Shown here: piece after piece, positions 46,152 through 52,121 of the stretch
Layout: every line of letters begins with the position of its first letter
How positions within the stretch are numbered: the first letter of the stretch is position 1
Source of the DNA: Halopenitus malekzadehii
Lineage (GTDB): Archaea; Halobacteriota; Halobacteria; Halobacteriales; Haloferacaceae
NCBI RefSeq assembly: GCF_900108505.1
Contig: NZ_FNWU01000002.1
Location: forward strand, 1 to 64,000
Direction of reading: 5' to 3'
DNA: 64,000 nucleotides
The notes under the pieces: model-generated
Seen by the model: the letters and a program-made list of their open reading frames with translations, nothing else
Databases searched by the model: none
Told to the model about the DNA's origin: nothing
Position numbers and translations under genes: made by a program

Positions 46152-46802
46152 TCAATCCACGGAGCCGCGTCCCGCAAAAACACCGGGGAACCCCCGAGGC
46201 GACTCGACCAATTCCTCGATCTCGTCACCACCAATTTCCCCGGCCCGAACGAGCGCACCGATCTCAGCATCGGTCAGCTCTTGACCGTCCTCGAACCTCC
46301 GGTACAATTTCTCGATGTCTGTGTTGTAATCGACCCAGATTGAGACGTCTACATTGGTCGCCCGCCCCGACGATTGAAAGAGTTTGTCGACGTTCGCCCC
46401 CTGGAGGACGCCGTGCTCGATACACGTTTCGAGCCGGGGGCGATCCCCGTGGAGCCCGAGGTAGCCGAACGCGACCATCGCAGCGAGTACGTCGTCGGTC
46501 TCCTCGGGGCCAAGCTCCTCGAAGATCTTCTCTCGTTCATCCGGTTCGAGGAACAAACTCAGTAACACGAAGTCCTTGAGTCCGTTAACCACTCGTTCGC
46601 GAATATCCTGCCGCCGATTGGCATCAGTCTGCGGCTGGGCGTACTCCTTGAGCCCACAGAGGTACTCCCGATCGGTCGGGGTGAGTATCCCCCGTGGTCG
46701 ATCCTCGGGTGTGAGCAGCGGCTCACGCTCGCTGTCATCGTCCCTGACGTCATCGACGCCGGTGAACAGTTCGTCAGCCGGTCGATCCGAATTGTTATTC
46801 AT
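46152..46802 (-). CDS. hypothetical haloarchaeal protein
   Basis: A 216-residue acidic protein from ATG 46802, which lies 27 bp after a TATTTAG TATA element (46826-46832), a leaderless arrangement. Predicted helical: VNGLKDFVLLSLFLEPDE, EKIFEELGPEETDDVLAAM, and a C-terminal TDAEIGALVRAGEIGGDEIE. No family or metal site is recognised. It could be a domain of unknown function found near integrases. The frame and codon use are core-like. Confidence 0.65.
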   Translation of the reverse strand: MNNNSDRPADELFTGVDDVRDDDSEREPLLTPEDRPRGILTPTDREYLCGLKEYAQPQTDANRRQDIRERVVNGLKDFVLLSLFLEPDEREKIFEELGPEETDDVLAAMVAFGYLGLHGDRPRLETCIEHGVLQGANVDKLFQSSGRATNVDVSIWVDYNTDIEKLYRRFEDGQELTDAEIGALVRAGEIGGDEIEELVESPRGFPGVFAGRGSVD

Positions 46803-46841
46803 ACATAGGCTATTATAACCTAATTCTAAATAACTTTTCAC

Positions 46842-47358: not shown

Positions 47359-48681
47359 GTGACCGACACGAACGAGACTCCCGACGACGTCGACGTCACC
47401 GACCAATCTGAGACAGACTCCGACGACCAAAACCGCGAATTGCGGACCGATGGAGGAACGGTCGCTACCGAGTCGGTCAATAGCAGTCATCCCAATGGGA
47501 CTGTAACCCCGGAGAGCACGGCGGAGCAAGGAACACCCAGAGTCGACACGACGACCGTCCCACAAACAGATCCCAGTCCCGACCCGAACGAACCCCCAGC
47601 GACGAACGATCCCGAAAAGCCGACTAATTCCGAACCCAACGAGGTCCGGAACGGAGACGAGTTGTTCTCGGGGGCTGTCCCGGTGAACGACATCCTCGAT
47701 TTCTATCTCGAAACGAACCCGTGGGGGGTGGCGGAAGGTACCATCAGTTCTTACCGGACGCGACTGCGACACTTCCGGCAGTTCTGTGCGGAGGAAGATA
47801 TCGAGAACCTTCGTGAGATCCAGCCATCCCGAATGGACGAGTTTCACAACTACCTCCGCAAACAACCGCAGATCGGGGCCCGATCATCAATCAAAGGGTG
47901 TCTATCGTCCCTGCGGAAGTTCATCCGGTACTGCGAGCGCCGCGGGGTGGTCGACCGTGGCTTCCACGAGCTCATCATCCTCCCGACGCTCTCAGATAGT
48001 AAGGGGGACGACGAGACGTGGCTCCCCCGTGACGACGCAAAGGACATTGTCGCCCACTTGGCGAAGTTCGAACCGTTCTCGAAAGCGCACGTGATCTGGG
48101 TACTCCTTGCCGAAACGGGGATCCGGCAGTCCACGCTGTACGCTTTCGATCTCGACGATTACGACGCTACCGAACGCTACATCGAGGCAGTCAACCGTGA
48201 GGACACGGGAACGCGGTTGAAGAACGGTGCGAAGGGCGAACGCGAACTCAGCATATCGAGCGAGGCCGTACAGGTCCTTGACGGATACATCCAAGCGAAC
48301 CGAAACGCTGTCACCGACGAATACGACAGAGACCCGTTGCTAACGACGAGAAACGGCCGTCTCCAGAAGAGCACGATTCGCAAGTACGTGTATGCCTGGT
48401 CCCGTCCGTGCGCGATTGGCAAGGACTGTCCGGTCGAAAAGGAGCCGGAGACGTGTGAGGCGGCGCAGACGAACAATGACGCGTACAAGTGTCCGGAGTC
48501 CGTCTCACCGCATCCGATCCGGCGGGGCTACATCACCCACCTCCGAGCCAACGGAGTCCCTACCGAAGACGTGATCTCGAAACGGTGCGACGCCAATCCC
48601 GACACGATCGAACGGTGGTACGATATGAGTACGAAAGCAGAACGTCGTGAGGCGCGGCGTGCCTTCGTTGAGGATCTCTAA
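47359..48681 (+). CDS. tyrosine recombinase with acidic N-terminus and Cys4 insert
   Basis: A 440-residue XerC/D-type recombinase starting at GTG. Residues 1-105 are acidic and Pro/Thr-rich (disordered); the core-binding domain follows (about 110-195), then the catalytic domain with ETGIRQSTL (box I Arg, about 256), HPIRRG (box II His385/Arg388) and RWYDM (Tyr421). Just before box II a short Cys-rich insert reads C-x5-C-x8-C-x11-C (about 350-381), likely a zinc knuckle. The same insert occurs in the integrase at 51099-52112. The two genes point at each other and bound a 5-kb block. Confidence 0.88.
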   Translation: MTDTNETPDDVDVTDQSETDSDDQNRELRTDGGTVATESVNSSHPNGTVTPESTAEQGTPRVDTTTVPQTDPSPDPNEPPATNDPEKPTNSEPNEVRNGDELFSGAVPVNDILDFYLETNPWGVAEGTISSYRTRLRHFRQFCAEEDIENLREIQPSRMDEFHNYLRKQPQIGARSSIKGCLSSLRKFIRYCERRGVVDRGFHELIILPTLSDSKGDDETWLPRDDAKDIVAHLAKFEPFSKAHVIWVLLAETGIRQSTLYAFDLDDYDATERYIEAVNREDTGTRLKNGAKGERELSISSEAVQVLDGYIQANRNAVTDEYDRDPLLTTRNGRLQKSTIRKYVYAWSRPCAIGKDCPVEKEPETCEAAQTNNDAYKCPESVSPHPIRRGYITHLRANGVPTEDVISKRCDANPDTIERWYDMSTKAERREARRAFVEDL

Positions 48682-48699: not shown

Positions 48700-48950
48700 G
48701 TTGTCACAGTCAACCGCCTCGGGGTCAAGCCCCGAGGCTTATCCGCTGACTCCCGTTCTACTCGAGTAGCTCGGTCGGCGTATACTCGTCGTTCACGTTC
48801 AGTATCCCTGACTTGAGGACCAGTTGACTGGATCCAACGTGAGACTTCTGCCCGCGATGGATATTCCCGCAATACCGGTTCGCAATATTCAGGTGGTATT
48901 CTTTCCACTGGATATTCCCAACTACCGCTGTTTTCCCCCGCTTGGCGTAT
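48700..48950 (-). mobile_element. C-terminal remnant of a mobile-element protein with terminal hairpin
   Basis: The minus strand encodes KRGKTAVVGNIQWKEYHLNI and HRGQKSHVGSSQLVLKSG, ending NDEYTPTELLE and a stop near 48758. It looks like the C-terminus of a haloarchaeal IS200/IS605- or IscB-associated protein, but the family is not certain. Just past the stop, CCTCGGGGTCAAGCCCCGAGG (about 48717-48737) is a perfect hairpin like those ending such elements. No upstream part of the gene is found. Confidence 0.4.
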
Positions 48951-49275: not shown

Positions 49276-49572
49276 TCACGCCCTGCTGAGGTAGCTATCG
49301 ATAACGAACCCTTCGTCGGAGAGGAGCGTCCGGGCCTCCCGTCGCACAGATTGGTTAGTTGGTCGGTCTTCCTGCTCTTGAATGTGTGTTTTGATGCTTT
49401 CCGCGACTCGGTCCACTATATCGGACCCTGCACAGTCGGCGACGCTTTCCAGCGTGCTCGCGTATCCCTGCTCGGCCGCATGGAATCCTTGTCTCGTATC
49501 AAGCACGTCGTCGTTGACTATGCCGACTTCGTAGAGATGCCCTTTGATGCGGAGATCCAGATCTCGGTCCAT
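49276..49572 (-). CDS. small hypothetical protein (98 residues)
   Basis: The protein starts MDRDLDLRIKGHLYEVGIVN and is mainly helical with an Arg-rich middle (QSVRREARTLLSDEGF). A TATA element (ATATAT, 49597-49602) lies 27 bp upstream of the ATG, which is leaderless spacing and supports a real transcript. No family is recognised. It is next to a repeat cluster and within the integrase-bounded block. A small DNA-binding or adaptor role is possible (inference). Confidence 0.62.
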   Translation of the reverse strand: MDRDLDLRIKGHLYEVGIVNDDVLDTRQGFHAAEQGYASTLESVADCAGSDIVDRVAESIKTHIQEQEDRPTNQSVRREARTLLSDEGFVIDSYLSRA

Positions 49573-49640
49573 ATTTAGTGGCTGGTTGGCTCTTGCATAT
49601 ATCCCAGGCCTCGGATGACTTTCGATCGCGACAGTGCTTT

Positions 49641-49825
49641 CATCAGCTATCGCGGGATTGCTAATCCACGCAGTCCCGCGATAGCTAAGAAACAGCCTAT
49701 CGTAGCAATTCCGGCATTGCCAATCGTACCACTCCCGCGATTGCTAACTGCCGCTATTCCGTTGATCCCTACAATTGGCGATACCGAGAATTGGCTTAGG
49801 TGGGATTTTCCATATTGCTAATCAG
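49641..49825. repeat. hairpin plus iteron-like repeat cluster
   Basis: Perfect 13-bp inverted repeat AGCTATCGCGGGA (49645-49657) / TCCCGCGATAGCT (49674-49686) with a 16-nt loop. The motif ATTGCTAA(T/C) recurs at 49657-49665, 49739-49748 and 49814-49822, and CCCGCGAT(A/T)GCTAA occurs at 49675-49688 and 49734-49747. Inverse-type variants (TTGCCAATCG, AATTGGCGATA, AATTGGCTTAG) fill the space between. It has no coding frame. The pattern resembles an origin, centromere or regulator array. Confidence 0.6.
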
Positions 49826-49856: not shown

Positions 49857-50057
49857 TCACACGTCGAAGCCGTTCCGCCTGAGAGCCTCCACCAGGTCAC
49901 TGTCAGGGTCAGCCGTAAACTCAACTAACGATGACTCCGGTCGTGTTGTCGTATATAGGTCAGAGTCAATGTTGTCAGGAATCTCGTTCGCGTGTGTCTG
50001 TTCAACAACGGCAACCGATATCTTGGACTTCGTCCCCGTGTCTGTTGAGTCGCTCAT
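49857..50057 (-). CDS. small acidic protein downstream of the FtsZ-like gene
   Basis: A 66-residue protein starting MSDSTDTGTKSKISVAVVEQ and ending EALRRNGFDV, on the same strand as the FtsZ-like gene and 119 bp after it. It has a beta-like first half and a helical end. No family is recognised. Its location between the FtsZ-like gene and the repeat cluster suggests that it belongs to the same unit. Confidence 0.5.
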   Translation of the reverse strand: MSDSTDTGTKSKISVAVVEQTHANEIPDNIDSDLYTTTRPESSLVEFTADPDSDLVEALRRNGFDV

Positions 50058-50176: not shown

Positions 50177-50971
50177 TCAAATACGAAGGAGTGTAAGTCG
50201 GCGCTTGTTTCCCATCATCTTCGTGGTATCGGCGGTGAAGAGTTCCAGCCCAACTCCGGAGTCAATTTGGCTCGTGATCTCTTCTCGTACTGTTTCAACT
50301 TCTCCAAGTGTCAGGTCGGTACCGGCGTGGAGGAAGCTGATGCACCTCTCAGCGTGGTTGCGGTCGTCGGTGTAGAGCGGGTTCGCAAGTGCGTTTGTGA
50401 CCAAGTCTGCTGCTAGTTCGTGTCCCGAAATCTCCGAGTTGTCGTGGTGCTGTCCCCGGAATCCTTGCACCAGCCCGGCTGTCTGTAGTTCCCGGTAGAG
50501 CTGTGAGGGTGGGGAAATCTGGACTTGGGCAGTCAGGATAGTCAATAGATCCGTTGCCAGTTCTTGGATGAGTGCTTGTTTGCAGGGAATAGTGGCATCA
50601 ACAGCGTCAATCTCGTGGACTCGTTTATCCTCTACAGGGGCGGGGAGAGCGATACTGGTGGTTTCCTCGGGCAGTGTTTCTCCGATAGTCTCTACGAGGC
50701 TACGGCATTCCGTACTACCAGCAAGTATAACGTAGTCTGCCTCTGTCGCAGCAGCTGGTAGCTCTTCCACGTTTTGCGCACGGTACGTGTTTGCTTCCGA
50801 GTATTCGAGTTGTGAATAGCGGCTATCCCATCCTCGCCGCTCGATTTCTGCTCCGAACTCACCGTATCCGAGAAGGAGAAACTGAGGATCTCCGAACTCA
50901 TCGACAGCCGCCTCTTTGTCGTGTTCCGGGTCTTCGTGGTTTTCCAGAGCGGCCTCTACGAGATCCCTCAT
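50177..50971 (-). CDS. divergent FtsZ/tubulin-like protein lacking GTPase motifs
   Basis: A 264-residue protein built like a reduced FtsZ. The N-terminus MRDLVEAALENHED matches the start of haloarchaeal FtsZ1; FLLLGYGEFGAEI (31-43) aligns with the first beta strand and loop (VVGCGGAGGNTV-type); DYVILAGSTECR (79-90) stands where the signature GGGTGTG should be; LQTAGLVQGFRG (162-173) aligns with MEKGGVAMIGLG; ALANPL (194-199) and AGTDLTLGEV (216-225) match the C-terminal SPLLD and GGPDLTLEEV-type motifs. The signature loop and the T7 NxD loop are both missing, so GTP binding and hydrolysis are unlikely. FtsZ is usually ~360 residues. Neighbours: a 66-residue protein and a repeat cluster. Confidence 0.7.
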   Translation of the reverse strand: MRDLVEAALENHEDPEHDKEAAVDEFGDPQFLLLGYGEFGAEIERRGWDSRYSQLEYSEANTYRAQNVEELPAAATEADYVILAGSTECRSLVETIGETLPEETTSIALPAPVEDKRVHEIDAVDATIPCKQALIQELATDLLTILTAQVQISPPSQLYRELQTAGLVQGFRGQHHDNSEISGHELAADLVTNALANPLYTDDRNHAERCISFLHAGTDLTLGEVETVREEITSQIDSGVGLELFTADTTKMMGNKRRLTLLRI

Positions 50972-51098: not shown

Positions 51099-52112
51099 CT
51101 AGACGTTCCCCAGATACGCCCGTCGCTGTTCCATTCGCTCCCGGTCGGAACGCTCGTCGTAGTGCTTCTCGATCACCCGCTCAGAGACGTCAGCACGGCT
51201 TGAGACGGCTTGTGATGGGACATCCGACCGTAACCAGTGGGTAATCGACCCGCGCCGAAACGGATGGGGTGAGAACGATTCGGGACAGGTACTGGAATTA
51301 CTAGGATTGGTCGCCTCGCAGGTTTTCGGATCTCGGCCAAGTGGACACGTTCCGTCGTGCCGACACGGTTGCGTGTACTTGTACGCATACCTCGCGATCG
51401 TGCTCCGAGCGATACGTCCCTTCGTGGTTGTAAGGAGCGGCTCTCGGCCATACTTATCGGTTACCTCGGGACGTTTGTTCTCGATCCAGTCATCGAGAAG
51501 GTCGGCGATCGACTCCGAGATGGCGACGTGACGCTGGGACTTCGTCTTGTTCTTGAGCGGTGTGTCGGTGTCGGGCCGATGTTTGAACTGGAGATACCGC
51601 TCATCAGGGTTGTAGTCCTCGACATCAAGGGATCGGACGGCACCGCACCGAGCCATCGTGTGCCACATCACTGCGAGCGTCACGTGCGCCCGGCTGCAGT
51701 AGTGGTATCGTTCGAGGTTTTCCAGTACTGATTGGGCTGTCTGGGAGTCGAGTTCCTCGTGTCGCGCATTGTCCGTATCGTCGACGACGGGCGACTGTAC
51801 GCGCTGGGCGAGTCCGCTCTCGACGGCCTCGATGCTCTCACACCAGCGAATGAAGACGCGAGTCGTGTCCATCATCGACTTCTCCGTCGCCGGAGCCCAG
51901 TCACCCTCTTTACGGCTCTCGATCTGGTACTCCTTGATGAGGCGCCCGGTGAGCTCGTTCAAGTTGGTGATGTCCCGTTCGTCGAGCCAGTCGACGAACG
52001 TGGAGAGGCGTGACCGGTGGGAGTTGATGGAGCTTCGCGAGAGGTTTCCACTGCGATCATCAAGGTACAATTCGAGTGCTTTGCTCGGGTCGATAGGTTC
52101 TATGTCCGACAT
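51099..52112 (-). CDS. tyrosine recombinase with Cys4 insert
   Basis: A 337-residue XerC/D-type recombinase from ATG 52112 (an alternative GTG lies three codons upstream). Core-binding domain about 10-95; catalytic domain with RCGAVRSLDV (Arg), HPFRRG (box II His/Arg) and IEKHYDE (Tyr). A C-x5-C-x8-C-x10-C insert precedes box II exactly as in the recombinase at 47359-48681, with which it shares overall sequence. It lacks the long acidic N-terminus. It is convergent with the other recombinase across the FtsZ-like block. Confidence 0.88.
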   Translation of the reverse strand: MSDIEPIDPSKALELYLDDRSGNLSRSSINSHRSRLSTFVDWLDERDITNLNELTGRLIKEYQIESRKEGDWAPATEKSMMDTTRVFIRWCESIEAVESGLAQRVQSPVVDDTDNARHEELDSQTAQSVLENLERYHYCSRAHVTLAVMWHTMARCGAVRSLDVEDYNPDERYLQFKHRPDTDTPLKNKTKSQRHVAISESIADLLDDWIENKRPEVTDKYGREPLLTTTKGRIARSTIARYAYKYTQPCRHDGTCPLGRDPKTCEATNPSNSSTCPESFSPHPFRRGSITHWLRSDVPSQAVSSRADVSERVIEKHYDERSDRERMEQRRAYLGNV

Positions 52113-52121
52113 ATTTACCAC

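Follow-up and report, generated by a model that had tools for sequence, protein, structure and literature searches.

Repeat array at the p98 locus

The DNA analyzed here, hereafter the window, is a 64-kb stretch of a 364-kb haloarchaeal contig. At positions 49641-49825 it holds a cluster of repeats between two small genes, both on the minus strand. One of them, p98 (49276-49572), encodes a 98-aa protein that we propose to be a DNA-binding regulator. The other is an orphan 66-aa ORF (49857-50057) with no relative in other p98 loci, beyond which lies an ORF for an FtsZ-like protein of 264 aa (50177-50971, minus strand). The locus is flanked by two tyrosine integrase genes: int2 (51099-52121, minus strand), whose product shares 50% identity with the integrase at the end of a complete related element described below (L117), and the second one, int1 (47359-48681, plus strand), which is convergent with p98.

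An earlier note on this DNA had reported a 13-bp perfect inverted repeat and at least three copies of a motif in the non-coding DNA of 49641-49825, and both were present, far above chance. The inverted repeat is formed by AGCTATCGCGGGA (49645-49657) and TCCCGCGATAGCT (49674-49686), and is enclosed by a 17-bp arm pair with 94% complementarity. Exact copies of ATTGCTAA were found at 49657, 49740, and 49814, and variants of it at 49681, 49703, and 49716. The unit of the array is an imperfect 22-bp palindrome with the gene-strand consensus TTRGCAATCCC/GGGATTGCYAA, present four times in the window. The palindromes, all placed on the minus strand, are arranged in two pairs, starting at 49643 and 49667 and at 49702 and 49726, with a step of 24 bp inside each pair.

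Palindrome 1 (49643-49664), the proximal one, lies at -92 from the p98 start and reads TTAGCAATCCCGCGATAGCTGA on the gene strand; its PWM score of 23.7 bits was the second best in 64 kb, and it is one of only two places genome-wide with three or fewer mismatches to the consensus. Palindrome 2 (49667-49688, at -116), 24 bp from palindrome 1, scored 10.0-10.2 bits and is associated with the inverted repeat I1. Palindrome 3 (49702-49723, at -151; TTGGCAATGCCGGAATTGCTAC) had the top score of the 64-kb window, 24.6 bits, and palindrome 4 (49726-49747, at -175), 24 bp from palindrome 3 and associated with the 44-nt direct repeat D1, scored 16.2 bits. Weaker distal half-sites on the same strand (49764-49823) include ATTGCTAATC at 49814. 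The hairpin described in the earlier note (49645-49686, with the 13-bp arms given above) is produced by two adjacent 24-bp units, palindromes 1 and 2.

The half-site TTRGCAATC, with up to one mismatch, occurred six times in the 350 bp upstream of p98, compared with a mean of 0.18 in shuffled sequences (maximum 2 in 200 shuffles). When the PWM was built from other genomes only, four of the five best matches of the whole 64-kb window fell inside 49643-49747, and one other site in the window reached 10 bits. Because of this excess of half-sites and this placement of the held-out motif, a chance origin of the array is excluded.

The stretch was also read by us as non-coding, and a TATA-like box separates the array from the start of the 98-aa ORF. 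Open frames run across the array because of its 24-nt period. We considered that the array might be a coding repeat, as 24 nt equals eight codons and several frames are open, and rejected it: the frames differ between loci, and the TATA box intervenes.

Promoter geometry and conservation of the array

The array of the window lies directly upstream of the TATA-like box of p98 (ATATAT; 49597-49602, minus strand), which is placed at about -30 of the p98 start. Most p98 homologues have TATATA or a similar sequence at -32 to -29, the usual TATA position of a leaderless haloarchaeal promoter. Half-sites in the homologues are found at about -44, -68, -92, -116, -140, and -164 from the p98 start, that is, in a 24-nt phase, and the nearest one (-44) abuts the TATA box.

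Homologues of p98 were found in 21 of 171 family genomes, partial matches counted. Relatives that share it include Halobellus, Halorubrum, Haloplanus, and Halobaculum, and many copies are chromosomal. Most of the homologues have the 24-bp-phased array upstream. Across 169 family genomes, the palindrome was matched with three or fewer mismatches at 15 places, of which 13 are upstream of p98; the remaining two adjoin integrases, in genomes G370 and G421, the latter carrying the palindrome without a detectable p98. A reversed control pattern gave no match in the same 169 genomes. The motif score at held-out loci was 24.6 bits for the window, 21.5 for L058 and L081, 16.7 for L084, 14.3 for L082, and 9.3 for L083, all above 4.4 bits, the 99th percentile of random stretches. 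A DNA-level search of the order with the array of the window matched the window alone.

The palindromic sites were lost in two broken copies of p98 (L049 and L050), and the motif was absent at a few intact but divergent homologues (L044 and L046). The conservation of arrays at p98 homologues, their loss in broken copies, and their absence at distant relatives of the domain indicate that the array belongs to the p98 clade. We also considered whether the array is a site owned by the integrase. Many p98 loci have the array without a neighboring divergent integrase; thus, the array tracks p98, not the integrase, and this idea was rejected. Where a divergent integrase is present, its promoter side has conserved repeats of its own, ATTGGT/ACCAAT, around CCAATTAATTGG. 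The suggestion of the earlier note that the repeats are apparent protein-binding sites of a neighboring small gene is therefore supported for p98, since they are conserved beside p98 homologues and the palindrome is nearly absent elsewhere in the family.

In the G370 island, a second operator-like site precedes another small ORF, as would be expected of a regulon. Palindrome pairs without p98 were seen before small membrane-protein-like ORFs near integrases, at L075:4870-4930, which is also near a tRNA-Arg gene, and at L035:11490-11535. These pairs are possibly trans-regulated sites.

The p98 protein

The AF2 model of p98 (pLDDT 93.4) is all-helical, with helices at residues 3-24, 30-47, 50-67, and 73-86. 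The protein had no match in Pfam, PHROGs, or NCBIfam, and its profile found no convincing chain among PDB sequences (best E 0.94). In a Foldseek search against PDB and viral libraries, the model gave no significant match, none with E below 2.7, and resembled no known DNA-binding fold. Searches of viral contigs and phages with p98 also gave no matches. The homologue alignment (A1) contains a conserved C-terminal stretch, RP.N..VRR.AR, which could plausibly contact DNA. The helical domain of p98 was also seen, without the array, in small haloarchaeal proteins and in the C-terminus of a DUF5789 protein (L089-L104); the motif was likewise missing at distant proteins with this domain that are encoded on chromosomes.

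Mobile elements carrying p98

Genes for p98 adjoin tyrosine integrases, and at seven loci (L031, L032, L033, L035, L036, L040, and L061) the array separates p98 from a divergent integrase gene of one clade. Cargo or neighbors of p98 include McrBC, HNH, Mrr, methyltransferases, a PbeC-type gene, and BREX-5. The co-directional genes downstream of p98 in relatives include McrBC, HNH, and Mrr; in the window, no defence gene follows p98. Orc1/Cdc6 genes were found near some p98 copies, and also on plasmids.

One complete element was found in Halorubrum (L117, genome G451). It is about 16 kb long, is integrated at tRNA-Arg(CCG), and is bounded by a direct repeat of 129 bp (82%), within which lies the 3' end of this tRNA gene. 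Its integrase is at one end, followed by Orc1/Cdc6 and a large AAA gene that is a homologue of the McrB-like one; p98 with its array occupies the other, att-proximal end. No att repeat was found around the p98 copy of the window. The parts of the window that match related elements are the two integrases, p98, and the array, while the 66-aa ORF and the FtsZ-like gene look like unshared cargo.

Two further features were noticed near int1. The stretch 48709-48890 is 84% identical to the 3'-end stretch of a TnpB-like gene in L056 (11627-11814), and is probably, judged from this identity, a remnant of an IS200/IS605-type element located after int1. At 46152-46841 a 229-aa protein with the motif 'RPRGILTP' is encoded, for which no family name was found; it recurs beside p98 and integrases in L044, L046, and L050.

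No support for a link between the FtsZ-like gene and the array

The earlier note had placed the repeats beside the FtsZ-like gene and considered a TubZ-type centromere or plasmid iterons. The FtsZ-like protein matched Pfam FtsZ_C with E=2e-5, below the curated cut-off, and the GTP-binding signature, GGGTGTG or GGGTG(T/S)G, was absent from its 264-aa sequence; its AF2 model was unusable (pLDDT 33). It appears as a rare, short protein of the tubulin superfamily that kept the signal of the FtsZ C-terminal domain and lost the GTP-binding signature. Only one close homologue was found among 392 genomes of the order (64%; L008, genome G349), and none in the plasmids, phages, or genome contigs searched. 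A weak relative of 236 aa was seen in L009. No repeat cluster was found near the L008 homologue, whose genome carries p98 with the array about 570 kb away, and neither the FtsZ-like nor the 66-aa protein is encoded at any other p98 locus searched. The repeats are thus not conserved beside homologues of the FtsZ-like gene, the outcome that the earlier note had itself named as refuting, and the proposed link between the two is not supported.

TubZRC-type partition with the FtsZ-like protein as the motor, or an iteron replication origin, is accordingly extremely improbable as an account of the array, and has been largely refuted by this lack of co-conservation. In its favor are the FtsZ-like gene near the array in this one window and an FtsZ gene about 2.4 kb from p98 in the plasmid locus L061. 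The FtsZ of L061, however, is unrelated to the FtsZ-like protein of the window (no significant match), and the latter was found at no other p98 locus among those searched. Partition of the TubZRC type was rejected for want of both co-conservation and a GTPase signature, the FtsZ C-terminal match being sub-threshold, and the iteron origin was rejected because the eight ORFs that were tested around the array included no replication initiator.

The FtsZ gene of L061 (3213-4592; Halanaeroarchaeum sulfurireducens pHSR2-01) was itself observed to encode 459 aa, with an N-terminal ribbon-helix-helix-like segment fused to FtsZ with an intact GGGTGTG. It adjoins an integrase, p98, and BREX-5, and has a relative in L010. 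Such a protein may combine DNA binding and tubulin-type partition in one chain.

Proposed autoregulation by p98 and alternative roles of the array

We consider 49641-49825 to be probably the operator and upstream control region of p98, an autoregulatory array to which p98 is proposed to bind. This reading fits best because of the position and phasing of the palindromes, their linkage to p98, and the second site before another small ORF. Dimers of p98 would bind side by side on the 22-bp palindromes, one every 24 bp, just upstream of the p98 TATA box, and bound p98 would autoregulate its own gene. In relatives, its control would extend to the divergent integrase and to the genes that p98 precedes, which often serve restriction or defence. 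It would act as the switch of an integrative mobile element, with cargo and integrase kept off or balanced once the element is established. The binding, its dimeric form, and the sign of regulation are what we infer from the sequences. The strongest palindromes of the window lie 60-90 bp upstream of the p98 start and upstream of the TATA box, a position that suits an activator or looping better than simple occlusion.

Two other roles were weighed. The array may be an accessory site of site-specific recombination, with p98 as a Xis/Cox-like excisionase or architectural factor that binds phased sites beside att and directs the tyrosine integrase of the element. In the G451 element, the tRNA-Arg attachment repeat is followed inward, after a few hundred bp, by the array, which would fall between attP and the integrase in the circular element; in L056, tRNA genes are found on that side of the p98 locus where the array is, and in L075 they adjoin an array that has no p98; and the particular integrase clade divergent to p98 at seven loci points in the same direction. 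However, arm sites would not be expected as far from att as about 350-400 bp; several arrays (window, L034, L045) are beside neither an integrase nor an att site, and the position of the array is fixed to the p98 promoter, not to att. We regard this role as unlikely. Also improbable, in our judgment, is that the array is centromere-like and that p98 alone, without a motor protein, would ensure partition or stability, as StbA of R388 does with its stbDRs. A phased array upstream of the small gene's own promoter is the StbA/stbDR anatomy (PMC3098194), and Orc1/Cdc6 genes are found near some p98 genes and on plasmids; on the other hand, no p98 locus has a conserved NTPase partner, many p98 copies are chromosomal, the second palindrome site in one island precedes an unrelated small gene, and the FtsZ-like neighbor is not conserved. 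Neither role is exclusive of autoregulation by p98.

Comparison with known systems

RptR, C.Csp231I, and StbA are the nearest working analogues of p98. RptR represses restriction-modification defence islands, and binds 6-bp TAGCTA palindromes in 9-bp repeats that overlap the bacterial -10 box (PMC12255303). It resembles p98 in being small and all-helical, in being encoded at the head of a defence module, and in having a few phased palindromic repeats in the promoter of its gene; protein and site are conserved together (PMC12255303). In contrast, the sites at p98 are 22-bp palindromes that recur every 24 bp and precede an archaeal TATA box, in elements that carry integrases, and their consensus, TTRGCAATCCC/GGGATTGCYAA, is not a TAGCTA that overlaps the core promoter. 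The two proteins are likened by description, p98 having no convincing match to a PDB chain.

C.Csp231I is a controller (C) protein of a restriction-modification system, and C proteins are helix-turn-helix regulators (PMC4321490). They resemble p98 in being small and helical, in having tandem palindromic operators before their own gene, and, as regards some p98 relatives, in the restriction genes that follow (PMC4321490). Unlike them, p98 had no Xre/HTH_3-type HTH match in Pfam, NCBIfam, or PDB, nor a Foldseek match, and its neighbors are varied (McrBC, Mrr, HNH, BREX-5, or none). A restriction gene in the same operon, characteristic of C proteins, was found for some p98 relatives (McrBC, Mrr, HNH), and not for the copy in the window.

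The stbDRs of R388 are 9-bp direct repeats with 2-bp spacing, and stbB and stbC are in the operon (PMC3098194). StbA is a small DNA-binding protein, as p98 is proposed to be, with repeat arrays around its own promoter, and its stability function needs no motor (PMC3098194); p98 differs in having no conserved operon partner. The likeness to TubZRC (type III) is superficial, consisting of a repeat array beside a small gene and a tubulin/FtsZ-like gene. A centromere-binding protein of the TubR type would be a winged-helix protein, whereas p98 had no Pfam or Foldseek match and, with only helices in its model, offers no strands from which a wing could be built; unlike in TubZRC, the FtsZ-like gene of the window is not conserved with the array and has no GTP-binding signature.

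By its sequence, p98 appears to be a new type within a known class, that of small autoregulators which have operator arrays and reside on mobile elements. A far-reaching version, which we hold to be a long shot, is that p98 is the first member to be described of a fold of DNA-binding switches specific to haloarchaea, and that through one phased palindrome array it would control the excision and replication mode of integrative elements with Orc1, together with their defence cargo, and may also segregate them, as an archaeal merger of an immunity repressor and a motor-less partition factor.

With the tempting but unsupported reading as tubulin partition removed, the array most likely consists of docking sites by which p98 controls itself and its mobile, often restriction-carrying, element. 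Little is known of how archaeal integrative elements and their defence cargo are regulated. The p98 family, which has no name in the libraries searched, comes with a recognizable DNA site, so binding, regulation, and excision are directly testable in Haloferax, and the palindrome motif serves as a marker for finding such elements.
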